Assembly (NCBI RefSeq): GCF_002753895.1
Contig: NZ_NJER01000001.1
Span: 992,001 to 1,056,000, forward strand
DNA length: 64,000 nt
From: Halobacteriovorax sp. JY17
Lineage (GTDB): Bacteria > Bdellovibrionota > Bacteriovoracia > Bacteriovoracales > Bacteriovoracaceae
Reading direction: 5' to 3'
Below are positions 6,734-33,630 of the stretch, piece by piece (the first letter of the stretch is position 1; each line of letters opens with the position of its first letter). The position numbers and the translations under genes were made by a program. The notes under the pieces were generated by a model. The model saw only the letters and a list, made by a program, of their open reading frames with translations. It was not told where the DNA came from and did no database searches.

Positions 6734-6882
6734 GGTTGTTTATTACCAAAGAATGTTTGCTATGTGAAACAATTTGAAAAAAAACATAATTCTACATTTT
6801 TGTGACAATAATCCCTAACTACAGAGATATATTGGATAAAAGAAAGACATAGACACATAACAGCAAACTAAGATTGGAAATT

Positions 6883-7806
6883 ATGATTAGTGGATTAAAA
6901 GTCATTAACCTGCCTGCAGGAACAAAAATAAATCGCCCAAAAAATGGAGAGCTCTTTATTCTTGAGACCTGTCAAAGAACTTTAGTTCTAGGATATAACT
7001 TTGTTCCCTTCCACCATATAGTAACGCCGGCCAAGGAAATCGAAACTTACGTTGCAGATAAAGCCTATAGCTACCTTTTAGAAACAATTTGTGGATTAAA
7101 GAGTAAGCTCCTTGGCGAAAATGAGATCACTTCGCAGTTTAAAAAGTCTTATACAGAGTACCTAGGCTACGGAATTAGAAATTCTCAAATCATGTCTATA
7201 CTCGAAAAATTATTCATGGACGCGAAGAAGATTCGTACTTCTTACCTGAAGGAAATTGGACAACAGACGTATGCAGGTATTGCCAGAAAGTTACTTAGAA
7301 ACTCTTCTTTAGATGGAGATATTCTCATTATCGGCTCAGGACAACTTGCAGAAGATTTAATAAAGCTTCTCTCAAAGAAGCACCGTATTTTTCTAAGTGC
7401 AAGAAATACAACGAAGGCCCTCGATTTAGTATCTAAATATAGTGATGACAATATTGAGTTAGTCGAGTGGAATAGTCTTGATGCGTGGTCAAAGTTTCCA
7501 TTTATCATGAATACAATCGGTTCAAAGGCCTATTCTATCAATCACCACTTCTTCTTAGATTGGTCTAAGAATGATGAGAGATTATTCATTGATTTAGGTT
7601 CTCCCTGTGTGATAAATACTCCTTTCACAACCAGAGAAGAAGTATACAGACTTGAAGACATATTCGAGTTCGGAAAAATTTTAAACGAAAGCAAACAGCA
7701 GAAAGTACAAAGTGCCCATGCAGCAATAGAAACTCTTGTCCAAAAAAGAATTAATTCATTTGCTCTCAGCCTACCTTTCGGCTGGGAGGAAGTTCAATTT
7801 GTCTAA
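6883..7806 (+). CDS. hemA: Glutamyl-tRNA reductase, short form
   Basis: Reduces glutamyl-tRNA(Glu) to glutamate-1-semialdehyde with NADPH, the first committed step of C5 tetrapyrrole synthesis. ETCQRT carries the catalytic Cys (about residue 30), and GLKSKLLGENEI matches the tRNA/substrate region. ILIIGSGQLAEDLIKLL is the NADPH-binding fold. At about 307 residues it is far shorter than the usual 420: the N-terminus is clipped by some 20 residues and the chain ends soon after the spinal helix, so the C-terminal dimerisation domain is missing. I chose ATG 6883, with GGAA 5 bases upstream, over an in-frame TTG at 6874. First gene of the heme operon. Confidence 0.85.
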   Translation: MISGLKVINLPAGTKINRPKNGELFILETCQRTLVLGYNFVPFHHIVTPAKEIETYVADKAYSYLLETICGLKSKLLGENEITSQFKKSYTEYLGYGIRNSQIMSILEKLFMDAKKIRTSYLKEIGQQTYAGIARKLLRNSSLDGDILIIGSGQLAEDLIKLLSKKHRIFLSARNTTKALDLVSKYSDDNIELVEWNSLDAWSKFPFIMNTIGSKAYSINHHFFLDWSKNDERLFIDLGSPCVINTPFTTREEVYRLEDIFEFGKILNESKQQKVQSAHAAIETLVQKRINSFALSLPFGWEEVQFV

Positions 7807-9331
7807 GAAAATATATAAGATTGGAACGAGAGGAAGTCTTCTCGCAGTCACTCAATGTACACAAGTAAAAGAAGAATTAGAGAAACTAACTGGTGATGAG
7901 TTTGTTCTTGAGATTATTAAAACTCAAGGAGATCTCATAACTGACAAACCTCTCTGGCAACTTGATGGGAAGGACTTCTTTACTAAAGAATTAGACGAAG
8001 CTCTCCTTAGAAAGAATGTAGACATGGTTGTTCACTCCTATAAAGACCTTGGAAGTGAAAGACCTGAAGGTATCAAGCTCGCGGCGATCACCAAGAGACA
8101 CTTTGCTCACGACATTCTCTTTATAAGAAATGAAACGATTCCAAAAATAAATTCAATGAATACTTTTACTGTAGGGACAAGCTCTCCAAGGCGAATCGTC
8201 AATCTCGAATCAGGGCTTAAAGAGTTTCTTCCAGCGAACTCAGTAAAAGTTGAAACAAAGATGCTTCGAGGAAATGTAAATACTAGAATTGGAAAGCTTG
8301 TAAAAGGTGAATACGACGCGATTGTTCTCGCTCTTCCTGGAATTGAAAGACTCGCTCACAGTGAGAATTCTTTAAAAGAGCTAGAAGTTTTACTTAAAGA
8401 CTTAAATTATATGATTCTTCCTCAGAGTGAATTCCCTTCGGCGGCGTCTCAAGGGGCATTGGCGATAGAGTGTAATGAAGAAAATACTGAACTTCTAGAG
8501 AAGTTAAAACTCATAGAAGATAAAGATACTGTAAGTGAAGTTAGTAGAGAGAGATCGGCCTTTAAGAGCTATGGTGGTGGTTGTCACTTAGCAGTTGGAA
8601 TCAACGTTAGAAAATCTGGTCTAAATTATATTCACATACATAAAGGAAGAGCGGACGACAAAGAAATTAGTGAATATCAACTAGAGTCAGTTTCTGAAAC
8701 TTTTCAAGGTGATAAGTCTAAAGTCTTTATTGGAATGCCTTCATCAAAGGACGCAAATTCGGAGTATCTCTTTGATGAGTTGATTACCAAAGTACCAACC
8801 TCTCCTATAGAGATTGCAGAAAAGTCAGATTTCTTTGTAACGAGTAAGTACTGTATAGATCAACTTGAACACTCAAGAAGCTCTATTCAAAATCTATGGG
8901 CGGCGGGGACTAGAACCATGAAAGAATTAACTCAGAGAGGTTTCTGGGTTAATGGGACAAGTAATTCTCTAGGACATGATGAATTAGAAATTCTTAGAAG
9001 CTCAAAATGTATTCAAGTCATGAACAAAAAGAAAGAGTTAAAAGTTTTAACTCATAGAGACTCAAAATCGAATCACGGAGAAATCATTGGTTGCTACGAT
9101 AGAAACCTAAACCATATCTCTGATGAGTATAGAGAAAAACTTTTAAAGACAGAAATATTCTTCTGGACGAGCTTTAATCAATATCTAGAGTTTGTAAGAT
9201 TAATACCAGCGATTAAAGATAGATTTCACTGCGCAGGACTTGGAAAAACAAAGAATCGTTTTGAAGCAGAAGGAATCAGAGTCAAAACATTTATAGGTGT
9301 GAGAGATTTTAAAAATTGGATTAAGGAATAA
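7799..9331 (+). CDS. hemC: HemC-HemD fusion: hydroxymethylbilane synthase / putative uroporphyrinogen-III synthase
   Basis: 510 residues. The N-terminal 300 are porphobilinogen deaminase: IGTRGSLLAVTQ, VHSYKDLG, VGTSSPRR, RGNVNTR, SQGALAIEC, and GGGCHLAVG with Cys262 as the dipyrromethane attachment site. The C-terminal 210 residues look like a divergent HemD: a WAAGTRTMKEL helix, then FWTSFNQYLEFV and AGLGKTKNRFEAEGI, matching the final strand-helix units of uroporphyrinogen-III synthase. Together they would convert porphobilinogen to uroporphyrinogen III. The start is TTG 7799, set by GGAGG ten bases upstream; it overlaps the hemA stop by 8 bases. An upstream TTG at 7736 lacks an SD and would lie inside hemA. 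Confidence 0.85.
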   Translation: MSKKIYKIGTRGSLLAVTQCTQVKEELEKLTGDEFVLEIIKTQGDLITDKPLWQLDGKDFFTKELDEALLRKNVDMVVHSYKDLGSERPEGIKLAAITKRHFAHDILFIRNETIPKINSMNTFTVGTSSPRRIVNLESGLKEFLPANSVKVETKMLRGNVNTRIGKLVKGEYDAIVLALPGIERLAHSENSLKELEVLLKDLNYMILPQSEFPSAASQGALAIECNEENTELLEKLKLIEDKDTVSEVSRERSAFKSYGGGCHLAVGINVRKSGLNYIHIHKGRADDKEISEYQLESVSETFQGDKSKVFIGMPSSKDANSEYLFDELITKVPTSPIEIAEKSDFFVTSKYCIDQLEHSRSSIQNLWAAGTRTMKELTQRGFWVNGTSNSLGHDELEILRSSKCIQVMNKKKELKVLTHRDSKSNHGEIIGCYDRNLNHISDEYREKLLKTEIFFWTSFNQYLEFVRLIPAIKDRFHCAGLGKTKNRFEAEGIRVKTFIGVRDFKNWIKE

Positions 9332-9333
9332 GT

Positions 9334-10602
9334 ATGACTACTCAAAGTGAATTATTTGAAAAATCAAAAGAATTAGTACCTGGTGGAGTACACTCACCTG
9401 TTAGAAGTTTCAAAGGACTTCATACAACTCCAAGATTCATTAAGAAATCCCACGGGGCAATGATTGAAGATGTTGACGGAAAAGACTATATAGATTTCTG
9501 CATGAGTTTTGGCCCACTAGTTCTTGGTCACAAAGATGAAGACGTTGAAAAGAGTCTCGTTGGCGCTCTATCAAGAGGCTGGAGCTACGGAACTTGTGAG
9601 CCGTACTCACTAGATCTCGCTGAATACCTTCTTTCAAAATTAGACTTTGTTGATCAAATACGTTTTGTAAACTCTGGAACAGAGGCCGTAATGACGGCCC
9701 TCAGACTTGCCAGAGGAACAACAGGTAAAGATAAGATTATAAAATTCAATGGTTGTTATCATGGTCACACAGATAGCATGCTCATTAAAGCTGGCTCTGG
9801 CTTAGCGGGAACAAGCGAAGCTTCTAGTGCAGGTGTTCCAAAGGGAATATCAGACGATACTCTTGTTCTAGAGCTTGGTGACAGAGAAGGTATTGAGCAA
9901 TGTTTCAAAGATCACCCAGGCCAAATTGCTGCCATAATTATCGAACCTCTTCCGGCCAATAATGGTCTACTCATTCAAGATCAAAGCTTCCTTGAATATT
10001 TGAGAGAAGTTACAACAAAGAATGAAGCTCTACTTATTTTTGATGAAGTGATCTCAGGTTTTAGAGTAGCTTTTGGTGGAATGAGTGAATTAACAGAAAT
10101 AACTCCTGATATCGTGACTTATGGAAAAATTATCGGTGGAGGACTTCCTGTTGGCGCTATTGCCGCCAAGAAAGAAATCATGAATAACCTCGCTCCTATT
10201 GGAAATGTCTATCAAGCGGGAACTCTTAGTGCCAATCCTTTAGCAATGGTTGGTGGACTTGAAACTCTTAAGAAAATGACCCCTGCGGCCTATGAGAAAT
10301 TAAATCAGAATGCAAGTAGGATAATTGATGTTTTCTCAAAATGGTTACAAGAATATAACGACGGAGAATTTTCTCACTACTCTCTAACGGGTCATAGTTC
10401 ACTTTTTTGGATTGTTGCTGGTAATGATATTAATTGTATGAATAAAATTCCTGCTGATATTACGGAGAAGTTCAACCCACTTTTTGAAACTCTTTTAAAC
10501 AAGGGAATCTATCTTTCTCCAAATGCCTATGAAGTAGGATTTGTTAGTCTTGCTCACGATGAGAAAGTTATAGCAGAATTAGAAAAGAGGCTTTGGAATT
10601 AA
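9334..10602 (+). CDS. hemL: Glutamate-1-semialdehyde 2,1-aminomutase
   Basis: 422 residues, normal length. A PLP-dependent class III aminotransferase fold that turns glutamate-1-semialdehyde into 5-aminolevulinate, the step after HemA. VPGGVHSPVRSFKG and FVNSGTEAVMTALRLARG are diagnostic. FDEVISGFR precedes the lysine loop YGKIIGGGLPVGA, whose Lys forms the PLP Schiff base, and then AGTLSANPLAM. It starts 2 bases after hemC/D. The next gene, a histidine kinase, starts directly at its stop codon. Confidence 0.95.
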   Translation: MTTQSELFEKSKELVPGGVHSPVRSFKGLHTTPRFIKKSHGAMIEDVDGKDYIDFCMSFGPLVLGHKDEDVEKSLVGALSRGWSYGTCEPYSLDLAEYLLSKLDFVDQIRFVNSGTEAVMTALRLARGTTGKDKIIKFNGCYHGHTDSMLIKAGSGLAGTSEASSAGVPKGISDDTLVLELGDREGIEQCFKDHPGQIAAIIIEPLPANNGLLIQDQSFLEYLREVTTKNEALLIFDEVISGFRVAFGGMSELTEITPDIVTYGKIIGGGLPVGAIAAKKEIMNNLAPIGNVYQAGTLSANPLAMVGGLETLKKMTPAAYEKLNQNASRIIDVFSKWLQEYNDGEFSHYSLTGHSSLFWIVAGNDINCMNKIPADITEKFNPLFETLLNKGIYLSPNAYEVGFVSLAHDEKVIAELEKRLWN

Positions 10603-11502
10603 TTGAAAAAGAATAAGAGTCTCCTCCTATTAACAACGCTTCTAGTGACCACTACGCTTGCTCTTGCAACATGGTGGACATACTTACTCTATGTCTTTGG
10701 TGACAAGTTTGAAGAACTATCTAGAACCATGCCGGAACTAGGTCTTAGAGTAAATATAATTAGAATGCTAAAATGGGAAGCTTCAACCTTCATCATTTTA
10801 ATTCTCTTTTTAACCGTAAGCTTCTTAGTCGTCTTCTTTAAAGATCATAGAAAAACTAAGGCACTACAATCTTTCTTTGCTAGTCTTACCCATGAGCTTA
10901 AAACACCTCTGGCGAGTATTAGACTTCAATCGGAAGTGATTACCGACGTAGCAGAATCTTTAGAGAGCGCTCAACTAGTAAAGCTTACCAGTCGGCTTAT
11001 AGAAGACACGGCAAATCTTGAAACACAAATGGACAAAATTCTACAGCTCTCACGACTTGAAAGAGGTGGGACGGTAAACTTAAGACCAATTGATCTAATA
11101 AAGATAATCAAAAAGGTTTCAAATAATTACAAGGTGCTCTATAGAATTGAACTTACAGAAGAGAGCGTTAGTGAAGTCATGGGTGACGAGTTGGCCATTG
11201 AGCTTATTATTAAGAACCTCTTTGAAAATACAAAGAATCACACTAAGACGGAAACAATAAGTATTAAGTTGGTGGAAGAGACGGCCAACAATATCATTAG
11301 ACTCCACTATAAAGATCAAGGGACGTTCTCAGGAGATCGTTCGAAACTTGGAATGATCTTCTATAAGTACGACAGTAAGAAAGGTAGTGGAATCGGACTC
11401 TACCTAATTAGAAAGTTCATGTCTCTTATGAAAGGACAGGCCATATTTCACGGTGAGAACTCACTAGAAACCGAACTTATTTTCACTAAGGCCCAACTAT
11501 GA
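10603..11502 (+). CDS. Sensor histidine kinase embedded in the heme operon
   Basis: 299 residues. Two membrane helices (about 5-30 and 60-85) enclose a short external segment of some 30 residues, too small for a typical ligand domain. The H-box reads THELKTPLASIRL; the N-box is NLFENTKNH and the G2 box is GSGIGLYLIRKF. The G1 box is weak (YKDQGT in place of DxGxG). The TTG start abuts the hemL stop (TAA then TTG), and the gene overlaps the regulator by 4 bases (ATGA). Its place between hemL and hemE implies a role in tetrapyrrole or envelope sensing; the signal is unknown. Confidence 0.9.
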   Translation: MKKNKSLLLLTTLLVTTTLALATWWTYLLYVFGDKFEELSRTMPELGLRVNIIRMLKWEASTFIILILFLTVSFLVVFFKDHRKTKALQSFFASLTHELKTPLASIRLQSEVITDVAESLESAQLVKLTSRLIEDTANLETQMDKILQLSRLERGGTVNLRPIDLIKIIKKVSNNYKVLYRIELTEESVSEVMGDELAIELIIKNLFENTKNHTKTETISIKLVEETANNIIRLHYKDQGTFSGDRSKLGMIFYKYDSKKGSGIGLYLIRKFMSLMKGQAIFHGENSLETELIFTKAQL

Positions 11503-12209
11503 TTAAAGGAAAAATCCTCATTGTAGAAGATGAGAAGAATTTAGGAATTACTCTGCAGGAATACTTAAGTGGACTTGGACATGATTGTCGCCTGGCCACA
11601 ACAGCATCTGAGGCGAAGGCCTCCTTTCATGAGGGTAACCCAAAAATCATTCTAATGGATATAGGACTTCCCGATGGAAATGGACTAGACCTAGCAAGAG
11701 AGTTTAGAAAAGTTCGAAAAGATTTCGTCCTCTTATTTCTCTCCGCTCAAAACGACCCTGAAACAAGAGTTGAAGGATTGGAGATAGGTGCCGAAGACTA
11801 TATAACGAAGCCATTTGCCCTTAAAGAATTAGTTCTTAGACTAAATAGAATACTAGAACATCAAAGTATAACGAACTCTTCTCCAGACGAAATAAAGGTT
11901 GGAGATCTAAAAATTTGGTTTAAGAGATTTGAGCTTGAAAATGGAAATGGGGAGATCACTCCTATTTCTCAAAAGGAATGCTCTATATTAGAACTTCTTA
12001 TTAGAAATGAATCTCAGGCCACGACAAGAGAAGAAATTATCGAAGCGGTTTGGGGAGAGGATAAATTCCCATCAAATAGAACTGTAGACAACTACATAGT
12101 CTCCCTAAGAAAGTGGTGTGAGACTTCAAAAGAAAATGCAATCGAAATAAAAAGTATTAGAGGGATTGGCTATAAATTAAATTTCAACGCTAAATCCGTA
12201 GAAAAATAA
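11499..12209 (+). CDS. OmpR-family response regulator embedded in the heme operon
   Basis: 236 residues: a receiver domain (acidic pocket in IVEDEKN, phosphoacceptor Asp in ILMDIGLP, Lys in YITKPF) followed by a winged-helix DNA-binding domain (about 130-230; NRTVDNYIVSLRKW and IRGIGYKL). The partner kinase overlaps it by 4 bases. It probably controls transcription of the heme operon, heme uptake genes or others; no binding site could be assigned. It resembles the regulator at 21484-22200, with the same kinase-then-regulator order and the same overlap. Confidence 0.93.
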   Translation: MIKGKILIVEDEKNLGITLQEYLSGLGHDCRLATTASEAKASFHEGNPKIILMDIGLPDGNGLDLAREFRKVRKDFVLLFLSAQNDPETRVEGLEIGAEDYITKPFALKELVLRLNRILEHQSITNSSPDEIKVGDLKIWFKRFELENGNGEITPISQKECSILELLIRNESQATTREEIIEAVWGEDKFPSNRTVDNYIVSLRKWCETSKENAIEIKSIRGIGYKLNFNAKSVEK

Positions 12210-12218
12210 GAGGAAAAA

Positions 12219-13256
12219 ATGGGACTATTTAACGACAGAACACAAGTGAATGGAAAGACAGGCGTACCAGTATGGTTTATGAGACAGGCGGGAAGATATC
12301 ATTCTCACTATCAGAATATAAAGAAAGACTCTGACTTTATGACTATGTGTAAGACACCTGCTCTTGCCAATGAAATTACTCACGGTCCTATTGATGACTT
12401 TAATTTCGATGCCGCGATTTTATTTTCAGATCTACTCTTCCCTCTTGAGCAACTAAATATGGGACTAGTTTATAATCCAGGGCCAATTCTTGATAAGAAA
12501 ATTGAAACCATTGAAGATCTTAACAAGCTAAGTGTCAAAGCTCCTGCTACAGAGTATTATAACTTTCAAAAAGAGGCCTGTACTCTACTTAGAAACTCAC
12601 TAGCGAAAGATAAGACGCTTCTAGGTTTTGTTGGTGCTCCTTTCACTCTCTATTCATATGCAACAGAGGGAAGCCACGCAGGAAGTCTTACAAGTTCCAA
12701 ACTAGGTCTCTACGATGGACGCTTTCAAGGCTTCCTTGAAAAGCTTATGCCAGAATTAGTAGAAAATATGTGTATTCAAGCAGAAGGTGGAGCAGATGCG
12801 ATGTGCCTCTTTGACACTGCTGTTGGAGAATTACATATAGAAGACTTTAAGACTTATATTATTCCGGCCCTAAAATCTGTGACCAAAGCATTTAAGGCCA
12901 GATATCCAGAAAAGAAAGTTATCTACTACTCAAAGCTTACTCATATGGAATACCTAAGAGAAATCCAAGACGATAATATTGATGTTCTAGGAATTGACTG
13001 GAGAATGAATCTAGCAAGTGCACTCAACGAGTTTGGAAAAGACTACTATATCCAAGGGAATTTTGACCCTAGCTGGCTACATCTTCCATGGGAGCATGTT
13101 GAAACAAATTTAAAGAGAATGTGGCAAGGTCTTCAAGACCAGAATGTTCCTTTTGAGAAGTGGATTTGTGGTCTAGGTCACGGAGTTCTTCAACATACTC
13201 CAGAAGATAACGTGAGAAACGCTGTTTCCTATATCCACGAGAACTTCGTCTATTAA
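12219..13256 (+). CDS. hemE: Uroporphyrinogen decarboxylase
   Basis: 345 residues, full length. VPVWFMRQAGRY near the N-terminus is the family signature holding the catalytic arginines. DAAILFSDLLFP and FVGAPFTL follow, and a C-terminal GLGHGVLQHTPEDN closes the barrel. It decarboxylates the four acetate side chains of uroporphyrinogen III to give coproporphyrinogen III. The start has AGAGGA about 6 bases upstream and lies 9 bases after the regulator stop. It overlaps hemN by one base (TAATG). Confidence 0.95.
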   Translation: MGLFNDRTQVNGKTGVPVWFMRQAGRYHSHYQNIKKDSDFMTMCKTPALANEITHGPIDDFNFDAAILFSDLLFPLEQLNMGLVYNPGPILDKKIETIEDLNKLSVKAPATEYYNFQKEACTLLRNSLAKDKTLLGFVGAPFTLYSYATEGSHAGSLTSSKLGLYDGRFQGFLEKLMPELVENMCIQAEGGADAMCLFDTAVGELHIEDFKTYIIPALKSVTKAFKARYPEKKVIYYSKLTHMEYLREIQDDNIDVLGIDWRMNLASALNEFGKDYYIQGNFDPSWLHLPWEHVETNLKRMWQGLQDQNVPFEKWICGLGHGVLQHTPEDNVRNAVSYIHENFVY

Positions 13257-14518
13257 TGGGTCAAAACCTAAAAGATCTATTGGTTAATTTCCACTCCCAC
13301 GGAAGAAGGTATAGCTACTATCCCTCTCTTCCAACTTGGAGTGGAAACGAAGAAAAAGAACTTATAATTGAAAGTTTAAATTTAAAAGAGACCAATCTCT
13401 ATATTCACATCCCCTACTGTTCATCTCTTTGTACATTCTGCGGCTGCAATATAAAGATCACAAAATCTAAAGAACAATTCACCACCTATATTGAAAAAAT
13501 TCTGGTAGAGTGGAAGAACTACAAAAATAAAAACCCTAATATAAGCCTCTCATCCATCTATCTAGGAGGAGGAACTCCTACATACTTAGAGCTTGAGGAC
13601 TTGAAGTTTCTGATTGATTCCATTCTAAGAGATACCGAAGTGTCTACAGACTTCATAGGGACAGTTGAAACAGACCCGCGGGTTCCACAGGCCGAGAAGC
13701 TAAGATACCTAGCAGGAGTTGGATTTAACTCTATCAGCATAGGTGTACAAGACACCAATAGAGAAACACTACTAAATGTAAATAGAGACCAAAGTTTCGA
13801 TCAAGTACGCGAACTTGTAAGTTTTTCTAGAGAGATTGGTTTTTCGGAAGTTAATTTAGACCTAATCTATGGCCTTCCTTTTCAGACGAAGAAAACTTTT
13901 ACAAAGACTATTGAAGATATTATCGAGCTCTCTCCAGACAGGATTGCCAACTACCCTCTTGCAAAAGTTCCATGGCAAATGGACTTACAAAATGCACTGG
14001 GAATCTATAAGCCCTTAGGTGTCTATGAGATGTATGACCTCTATATTCTTTCTGATGAAATTCTTAAAAAAAATGGTTACAAGCTTCTTGGAATGGGACA
14101 CTACAGTCTTTCAAGTGAAAACTATAATAGAAATATTACTGGATATACTAGAGCGAAAGATACCTCTCTCATTGCCCTAGGGACTTCGGCTATATCCAAC
14201 ACTAGTGATTACTTATTTCAAAATGATAAAATACTTGAGAAATATATGCTCTCTCCTAATTCTGCTATAAAATCTCATAAGAAATCAGAATTAGAAAAAA
14301 GTCTTGAAGTCTTATTCTCCCAAGTAAATTGCCTTTCAATTATTACAAAAGGCCTTATGGAAGTATGTTTTACACCTCCTCAATTAGAGCGAATAAAAAA
14401 GTCTCTTACTCATTTAAAGAATCATGACATTCTCATCGAACAAGAAAATGCATATCAAATCACTGATTTTGGAAAACACTTCAACAAAACCATTTGTCAG
14501 ACTTTTGAAATATTCTAG
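13256..14518 (+). CDS. hemN: Oxygen-independent coproporphyrinogen III oxidase (radical SAM)
   Basis: 420 residues. YIHIPYCSSLCTFCGCN gives the CX3CX2CXC cluster of true HemN, which distinguishes it from HemW, whose motif lacks the last Cys. YLGGGTPTYLE is the SAM-binding stretch, and VNLDLIYGLPFQT follows. It oxidatively decarboxylates coproporphyrinogen III to protoporphyrinogen IX without oxygen. It is slightly shorter than E. coli HemN (457). Last gene of the operon, coupled to hemE through a TAATG overlap. HemB and the final steps (protoporphyrinogen oxidase, ferrochelatase) are not in this window. Confidence 0.93.
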   Translation: MGQNLKDLLVNFHSHGRRYSYYPSLPTWSGNEEKELIIESLNLKETNLYIHIPYCSSLCTFCGCNIKITKSKEQFTTYIEKILVEWKNYKNKNPNISLSSIYLGGGTPTYLELEDLKFLIDSILRDTEVSTDFIGTVETDPRVPQAEKLRYLAGVGFNSISIGVQDTNRETLLNVNRDQSFDQVRELVSFSREIGFSEVNLDLIYGLPFQTKKTFTKTIEDIIELSPDRIANYPLAKVPWQMDLQNALGIYKPLGVYEMYDLYILSDEILKKNGYKLLGMGHYSLSSENYNRNITGYTRAKDTSLIALGTSAISNTSDYLFQNDKILEKYMLSPNSAIKSHKKSELEKSLEVLFSQVNCLSIITKGLMEVCFTPPQLERIKKSLTHLKNHDILIEQENAYQITDFGKHFNKTICQTFEIF

Positions 14519-31598: not shown

Positions 31599-33630
31599 GT
31601 CAAACAGTTGTTCAAATAGATTCTCTACCTATGGAATTGTCTACATTTCCATGACATTTCTGCTCTCGGGGCACAGCTTCGCCAGCACTCCTATATCTAC
31701 AAATGCTGTTGAAGATAATACTGTCTATATCTATGGTGGCCTAAATACTAAGTCCGGATTAATCGACTCTGCAGTTAAGACTGAAGTTCTAGACTCTCAA
31801 GAGATTAACTCTTCTCACTATCAAGATCTCTCTGAGGCGATGTCGGATATAGCAGGAGTATCGGAGACAACCGTAGACCGAAGAGGTGGAGCAAAAACTG
31901 CTCTAATCCAAGGCTTTGGTGAAAATAGTGTTCTCGTCATGATTGATGGGACTCCAGTTTCTCAAAACTCTTCCTTTGGTTTTGACCTTACTCAAATCTC
32001 CACTGAAAATATTGAAAAAGTTGAAGTCATTAAAGGCGGAGCCTCTGCCCTCTATGGAAGCCAAGCGATTGGTGGTGTTATCAATATTGTGACGAAGAAG
32101 CCTTTAGCTAAGAAGAAAGTCTTTCTCGATTTAAATTCAGGAATGGATCAAAAATCCAATAAAGCAAAACAAACGAGTGCTAAAGGTCTTTATAGCAATA
32201 GAGTCTCAGGCGTTGGGCATAAGCTAACCCTCTCCTATAGAGAGCAAAGCGACTATGATCTAGATGAGAAGAGTTACGCAAAAGACGGTCCAGAAGTTCA
32301 AAAATTAAATGGATCACTCTACTTAGACAAGAAGTTTGGGGCCAATATTCTCTCTCTTAACTATCTCTACTTCAATGACTATGTGAAATCCACATCGTCT
32401 AAGCCATTTGGTTCAAGTACTTTTGGAGAGATTCAAAACGAAACGAAGACTTCTACACATAATATAAAATTACAGAATGTCTATAAGAGCGGTTCGAGCT
32501 CTTTAAAAACTTATATTAATGCCGAGCTCATTCGAGATGACTTAAACCTCAATGACAATCCAAAAACTTATTGGCAAGAATCACATAAGGTTACTGACTA
32601 TAATTCCTATAGAGTGGAAGCGGTTTATGACAATATCATTTTTGAAAACCATGCCCTTACGACGGGACTACTCTATAAAGAAGATCGTGTTGATCAAAGA
32701 ACAAGAACGCAGCAGACACAAGATATTATTGTCGATCATAGTGACATAGATAATAAGAAGATTTGGTCACTTCAAGGATACGTCCAAGATAATTACTTTA
32801 AAGACAATTATGAAATCTCGCCGGGGGCAAGAGTTCAGTATGATAGTAATTATGGTTACACCATTTCACCCAAAGTAAGCTTTAGCTACTTCAGTGAATT
32901 AAGTGAGAATATTGATTCAAAGAGTTGGTTAACTCTAGGAACTGGGCACCGCTCACCTTCTATAAAAGAGAGATTCTTTACTCTTGATCACTCATCAGTG
33001 GCGAATTATATTGTTCAAGGAAATGATGAGCTGAGACCAGAGGAATCTATCAGCGTGCAACTTGGAAATAAATTCGATCTAAATAAGTCCCACTCACTTC
33101 ATGGAAATATTTTCTATAATAGAATAACTGATTTAATTGAAACTACAGAAATTCCAAGCTCAACAAGTACAAAAATATTCTCTTATAAGAATTTTGATAA
33201 TGTTGAATCAAAGGGGATCGAATTAGGTAGTACATTCACACCTACAAAGTCTCAGAAGTTAAGCCTTAACTACTCGTACACAGAAACAATTAATAAGACC
33301 ACCGACCTTCAACTTTTAAATAGGCCTCTATACTCTTGGAAAGCAAAGTACACTTTCTCTCCTATTGAATCTCTAAGTCTTATCAACTCTCTTCGCTACA
33401 CCGGAAAGAAATATACCAATGAAGAGAATACTAAAATATCTGAAGGCTACTCTTCTTTTGATACAAAAATTAACTATGATTATACGAAGAATATTTCTCT
33501 CTACTTTGGGATAAATAATGTCTTTAACTCTGTGAAAGAGCCTACTCCAGACAGTGTCGTTGCCATTAATGACGATAGACCTACGCTTGGAAGATTCTTC
33601 TACACAGGCATACAGCTGAAGGATTTCTAA
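31597..33630 (+). CDS. TonB-dependent outer membrane receptor (heme/siderophore type)
   Basis: 677 residues. After an N-terminal signal (cleavage probably after HSFAS, near residue 30) comes a plug domain: ALIQGFGENSVLVMIDGTP, IEKVEVIKGGASALYGSQA and GGVINIVTKKP are the standard plug motifs. A beta-barrel of about 500 residues follows and ends with aromatic F (IQLKDF). It takes up its ligand with TonB-ExbBD energy. The adjoining HmuY-like lipoprotein suggests heme as ligand. No clear SD precedes ATG 31597; an alternative start at 31651 is possible but leaves a short signal. Confidence 0.92.
   Translation: MSNSCSNRFSTYGIVYISMTFLLSGHSFASTPISTNAVEDNTVYIYGGLNTKSGLIDSAVKTEVLDSQEINSSHYQDLSEAMSDIAGVSETTVDRRGGAKTALIQGFGENSVLVMIDGTPVSQNSSFGFDLTQISTENIEKVEVIKGGASALYGSQAIGGVINIVTKKPLAKKKVFLDLNSGMDQKSNKAKQTSAKGLYSNRVSGVGHKLTLSYREQSDYDLDEKSYAKDGPEVQKLNGSLYLDKKFGANILSLNYLYFNDYVKSTSSKPFGSSTFGEIQNETKTSTHNIKLQNVYKSGSSSLKTYINAELIRDDLNLNDNPKTYWQESHKVTDYNSYRVEAVYDNIIFENHALTTGLLYKEDRVDQRTRTQQTQDIIVDHSDIDNKKIWSLQGYVQDNYFKDNYEISPGARVQYDSNYGYTISPKVSFSYFSELSENIDSKSWLTLGTGHRSPSIKERFFTLDHSSVANYIVQGNDELRPEESISVQLGNKFDLNKSHSLHGNIFYNRITDLIETTEIPSSTSTKIFSYKNFDNVESKGIELGSTFTPTKSQKLSLNYSYTETINKTTDLQLLNRPLYSWKAKYTFSPIESLSLINSLRYTGKKYTNEENTKISEGYSSFDTKINYDYTKNISLYFGINNVFNSVKEPTPDSVVAINDDRPTLGRFFYTGIQLKDF

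Follow-up and report, generated by a model that had tools for sequence, protein, structure and literature searches.

The histidine kinase and response regulator encoded inside the heme biosynthesis operon of the window (the whole 64-kb stretch of DNA that was analysed) are very probably an orthologue of the HemK-HemR pair (HemKR) of Leptospira that feeds back on its own operon. A HemKR-type pair in the heme operon was found to be the rule in the phylum Bdellovibrionota, and the strongest new evidence is a DNA site, the HemR box upstream of hemA. The HemKR arrangement of Leptospira is already known, and a 2008 paper mentions linkage to heme genes in Bdellovibrio bacteriovorus; new here are the phylum-wide standing of the pair, the box, its variant in this lineage and the promoter phased with it, the joint loss of box and pair, the cytochrome-bc site and the sensor signature. 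HemKR would so move from a peculiarity of Leptospira to a standing heme regulator of a whole, mostly predatory phylum. The box, the promoter layout and the natural losses provide material directly open to testing, and the invariant sensor residues bear on what HemK senses.

Operon layout and the Leptospira counterpart

The open reading frame list and the sequence of the window, which comes from a genome of 3.47 Mb, gave an operon of seven genes at 6883-14518, all on the + strand and in the order hemA, hemCD fusion, hemL, histidine kinase, OmpR-type regulator, hemE and hemN (Table 1). The preliminary description of this DNA had placed the kinase and the regulator between hemL and hemE, which was borne out by the reading frames and the family matches. 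Its further claims on the layout also agreed with the sequence: the seven genes are on one strand with no gap above 12 bases (the largest intergenic gap is 9), the TTG start of the kinase at 10603 directly adjoins the TAA of hemL, and kinase and regulator overlap by 4 bases (ATGA, 11499-11502). The two helices that it had assigned to the kinase correspond to hydrophobic segments at about 6-31 and 57-79, and the short external loop was found to be about 25-30 residues long.

Table 1. Features of the heme operon, its promoter and the cytochrome-bc locus (window positions unless a locus is named)
Feature	Position	Strand	Basis
Predicted HemR box, variant CTACA-N6-TGACA (CTACATTTTTGTGACA)	6792..6807	+	hemA promoter alignment
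Predicted -10 element TATATT	6828..6833	+	Suggested by promoter alignment; 20 bases past box
hemA, short divergent glutamyl-tRNA reductase	6883..7806	+	Pfam GlutR_N + Shikimate_DH above cut-off
hemCD fusion (porphobilinogen deaminase / uroporphyrinogen synthase)	7799..9331	+	Porphobil_deam 3.4e-58
hemL, glutamate-1-semialdehyde aminomutase	9334..10602	+	NF000818 2e-155, above cut-off
hemK-like sensor histidine kinase	10603..11502	+	HisKA 2.7e-11, HATPase_c 8e-8; HemK orthologue by tree
Membrane-sensor signature, Trp24-Trp25 to Met55...Glu59	10672..10779	+	Alignment of 42 operon kinases
hemR-like OmpR/PhoB-type response regulator	11499..12209	+	Response_reg + Trans_reg_C; tree
hemE, uroporphyrinogen decarboxylase	12219..13256	+	URO-D 3.8e-80
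hemN-like oxygen-independent coproporphyrinogen oxidase (radical SAM)	13256..14518	+	TIGR00538 1e-69, below curated cut-off
181-aa membrane protein gene	L113:6151-6696	-	HemR-like box between gene and divergent genes 6799-13001

The hemA gene starts with ATG, an alternative TTG at 6874 being possible, and its short, divergent product scored 59 bits against TIGR01035 (cut-off 210). The hemCD gene starts with TTG and overlaps hemA by 8 bases, and hemE and hemN overlap by 1 base. The HemD half of HemCD gave no Pfam match despite its alignment with the bifunctional Leptospira protein, and it appears to be a very divergent uroporphyrinogen synthase. The scan of the operon for sigma-70 promoters and terminators returned no more predictions than were obtained in shuffles.

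The top match of the kinase in a plasmid collection was from Leptospira interrogans, with 115 bits compared with 78 for the next, on a replicon with the order hemA, hemCD, hemB, hemL, kinase, regulator, hemE, hemN, DUF5683 gene and hemG. The kinase aligned at 35% with Leptospira HemK in the aligned part and the regulator at 39% with the L. interrogans operon regulator over 236 aa. The top match of the regulator's receiver domain was PDB 4q7e (3.5e-24), which we take to be L. biflexa HemR. In both the kinase and the regulator tree, the Leptospira protein was nested in the Bdellovibrionota operon clade apart from the paralogues, both being quick trees with one Leptospira species and with Bdellovibrionota and Leptospira as the phyla covered. 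As judged from these alignments and trees, the pair is the Bdellovibrionota orthologue of Leptospira HemK-HemR. Because HemCD (30% over 508 aa to the annotated bifunctional protein) and HemA (32% over 174 aa to the first gene of the operon) are also colinear with Leptospira proteins, the whole operon appears to be homologous, and a transfer of the operon between Bdellovibrionota and Leptospira is suggested, not shown.

The Leptospira pair has been characterized in two studies. Mutation of the pair makes L. biflexa dependent on hemin or 5-aminolevulinate (ALA), and the L. interrogans pair is located between hemE and hemL (Louvel et al, 2008; PMC2266917). Furthermore, the phosphatase of HemK is stimulated by ALA, and phospho-HemR binds the box TGACA-N6-TGACA, as cited in the same work (Imelio et al, 2024; PMC11426443).

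Spread, promoter box and joint loss in Bdellovibrionota

All 40 fourteen-kilobase Bdellovibrionota loci, which had been picked by their kinase match, have kinase and regulator between hemL and hemE, and hemB or hemG was often added to the operon in these loci. Among the 113 genomes of the class with a hemL match, the best kinase match was directly behind hemL, within 170 bases, in 99, and several of those with no kinase at this place were contig ends. The search for related loci with a two-row kinase alignment returned three loci, all from Bdellovibrionota (one 'Bdellovibrio sp.' and two 'Bacteriovoracaceae' assemblies), and a 13-row alignment in this search found no conserved stretch. The preliminary description had set gene order in relatives as a test, with absence from close relatives counting against its proposal; the order was kept in all four congeners and phylum-wide, so the proposal was not contradicted. 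Its link to heme and its idea of a membrane sensor were supported by the HemKR orthology, the HemR box on the hemA promoter and the conserved sensor residues, whereas the implied novelty was not: a sensor kinase inside a heme operon is known in Leptospira (PMC2266917, PMC11426443) and, within Bdellovibrionota, usual rather than rare.

Two further features of these loci were observed. Several genera (L047, L049, L050) have a second kinase-regulator pair, encoded on the opposite strand 2-4 kb past the hem operon. The hem operon of genus g14 (also G037 and G038), as read in the one locus L058, resembles that of other classes, with hemB divergent and hemG at the end; its kinase and regulator group with those of other classes in the trees, and the operon was probably replaced by transfer.

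Of 41 loci, 23 had a perfect match to the Leptospira consensus TGACA-N6-TGACA in the 300 bases preceding hemA, with 0.01 expected. The Bacteriovoracia mostly carry CTACA-N6-TGACA, and with both forms allowed, the variant having been defined after inspection of these Bacteriovoracia promoters, the box was present in 41/41 (37 perfect and 4 with one mismatch; 0.02 perfect expected in Markov shuffles). The window box agrees with the original Leptospira consensus at 8/10 positions, and the variant has 2 matches in the 64 kb, where 0.06 were expected. The second exact match, at 31641-31656, overlaps the start of a long reading frame and is probably chance or coding. Past the box, the promoters have T at offset 21 (35 of 41), A at offset 22 (37 of 41) and T at offset 26 (34 of 41), which suggests a -10 element at a constant spacing of 20 bases. 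Activator-dependent promoters, for example those of PhoB, have this structure, with a box that replaces the -35 element at a fixed spacing from the -10. The regulator alignment gave no clear change in the HemR recognition helix that would match the CTACA instead of the TGACA half-site. Sites of the whole OmpR/PhoB family typically consist of direct repeats with an 11-base period, and about 30 HisKA kinases are encoded in the genome, so that the box might belong to another OmpR-family regulator; this is very unlikely, as its sequence fits the HemR consensus, which was established independently in Leptospira, and as it is found together with this very pair, also where the operon broke up.

Box and pair were kept and lost together. 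In G126 and G127, hemL abuts hemE, the pair is absent and no box precedes hemA; the pair is likewise absent from G059, with no box before hemA, and from G060, with no box before hemCD and with hemA outside the stretch. The operon is split in G055, where the relocated hemA is divergent from the kinase-regulator genes with a perfect box pointing at hemA, and hemB, hemCD, hemL, hemE and hemN, located elsewhere, have no box. At a forty-second locus (L046 of G049), hemA is gone from the operon and the box is directly before hemCD. The contigs of G042 and G069 end before the pair, and perfect boxes are present. Operon position alone does not define targets, and the locus of the pair differs between saprophytic and pathogenic Leptospira (PMC11426443), which would fit a kinase and regulator merely carried along in the operon and regulating unrelated genes; with the box fixed at the hemA promoter phylum-wide and disappearing with the pair, we give this reading almost no credence, even less than a foreign regulator at the box.

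Sensor residues and the cytochrome-bc site

The kinase, of the HisKA type, has two membrane helices at its N terminus and carries no sensor domain besides them. The predicted phospho-acceptor His97 was present in 42/42 operon kinases and the phosphatase Thr101 in 41/42; the L. biflexa HemK equivalents, H98 and T102, likewise have Thr four residues after His. The phospho-acceptor Asp54 of the regulator (D53 in HemKR) was invariant in the alignment. Trp24 and Glu59 were conserved in 42/42 kinases, Trp25 in 40/42 and Met55 in 39/42, the rest of the first 90 residues being variable. Trp24-Trp25 is placed towards the outer end of helix one (TM1) and Met55...Glu59 at the start of the second (TM2). 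When F31-S62 of L. biflexa HemK was replaced in the 2008 loop-swap, growth rescue was retained, and it was abolished on removal of the helices (PMC2266917). The published loop-swap primers, when translated, encode Trp-Trp-Trp just before the replaced stretch, so the Trp run was kept, and Phe-Phe-Leu-Ser-Met-Leu just after it. The invariant Glu, which aligns at about residue 60 of L. biflexa HemK, would be inside the replaced stretch. Because growth rescue, scored as heme-independent growth, tests the kinase-on state alone, the loop-swap does not exclude this Glu from an ALA-triggered off switch.

The second box, CTACACTATTATGACA, is identical in three congeners and is located 30 bases before the gene of a membrane protein (181 aa, no known family), which is divergent from a HEAT-repeat gene followed by genes for Rieske, cytochrome b, cytochrome b C-terminal and multiheme cytochrome c proteins. 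This cytochrome-bc locus was found beside the second box in three genera, and its gene order is kept in other genera. At the same site in 30 relatives, 12 perfect boxes and 4 with one mismatch were found, with 0.01 and 0.41 expected, and one genome of the genus with the divergent hem operon had no box there. There is also a variant box before a multiheme cytochrome gene in one congener. The 181-aa protein itself is conserved in most of the class, with about 56-78% identity outside its genus.

These observations bear on the signal. The kinase might read the redox state of respiration or of the membrane (quinone pool or oxygen) and not porphyrin, with the heme genes under control because cytochromes need heme; the conserved box variant between the membrane protein gene and the cytochrome-bc genes in three genera is consistent with this, and the conserved Trp and Glu, at the outer helix ends, could there receive a signal from the membrane or from quinone. 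We consider a redox signal unlikely, as sharing a target does not fix what is sensed, the L. biflexa pair responds to 5-aminolevulinate (PMC11426443) and its mutants are rescued by hemin or ALA (PMC2266917).

Other sites were also searched. In this genome, hemB and hemH have no upstream box, and no PF01126 match for a heme oxygenase was found, so there is no counterpart of the Leptospira target hmuO, the control of which is part of the L. biflexa regulon. The regulon here is therefore akin to the Leptospira one but not identical with it, and hmuO control is not a defining feature of the HemKR pair. Three probable Bdellovibrio genomes had 16 perfect TGACA boxes elsewhere compared with 8 for a reversed-pattern control; two of these sites recur before the same genes in two of the three genomes, and apart from hemA no heme-related gene was prominent among the boxes. 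Variant-box matches found in a single species were mostly inside genes and were taken as chance. A third box-like site, with TTACA or TGACA-N6-TGACA, recurs between a stomatin-like (SPFH) and a MazG-like gene in three congeners (L119, L121 and L125, with the box at 1501).

Proposed mechanism and comparison with known systems

Phosphotransfer, box binding, hemA activation and ALA-triggered shut-off have been demonstrated in Leptospira alone (PMC2266917, PMC11426443), and from these we infer by analogy the biochemistry of the pair in this organism. HemK would act in the membrane as both kinase and phosphatase, its two membrane helices making up essentially the whole sensor. At a low tetrapyrrole supply, HemK would phosphorylate HemR, and phospho-HemR would bind the direct-repeat box in place of the -35, 20 bases upstream of the -10, and activate hemA and the whole operon, the kinase and regulator genes included. 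On build-up of a precursor or porphyrin, HemK would turn phosphatase and operon expression would fall. In this class, HemR probably also acts on the divergent promoter beside the cytochrome-bc locus, which would tie heme supply to a heme-rich respiratory complex. A wider reading, which we offer as a tentative possibility, is that HemKR and its operon were an ancestral invention of Bdellovibrionota acquired horizontally by Leptospira, and that in Bacteriovoracia the pair became a joint controller of heme synthesis and cytochrome-bc with an intramembrane Trp-Trp/Glu sensor of the off signal.

The pair shares with HemKR of Leptospira the hemL-hemE position (as in L. interrogans), the operon order, the short HemA and fused HemCD, the two-helix kinase devoid of other sensor domains, the His, Thr and Asp sites, the OmpR-type regulator and the box upstream of hemA. 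It differs in the left half-site, which is CTACA here, in hemB being outside the operon, in the missing heme oxygenase target and in the extra box at the cytochrome-bc locus. PhoR-PhoB and CreC-CreB are the nearest general profile matches of kinase and regulator, but with scores far under the curated cut-offs, and they have other targets. HssRS and ChrSA also consist of a membrane kinase and a response regulator and are heme-responsive, but they are linked to heme efflux or heme oxygenase genes and are not inside a biosynthesis operon. The Bdellovibrio bacteriovorus system is of the same phylum and has its pair linked to heme genes, as mentioned in one sentence ('data not shown') with no operon map, box or regulon (PMC2266917); at the loci of the probable Bdellovibrio genus analysed here, hemB is divergent from hemA and the box is the canonical TGACA repeat.
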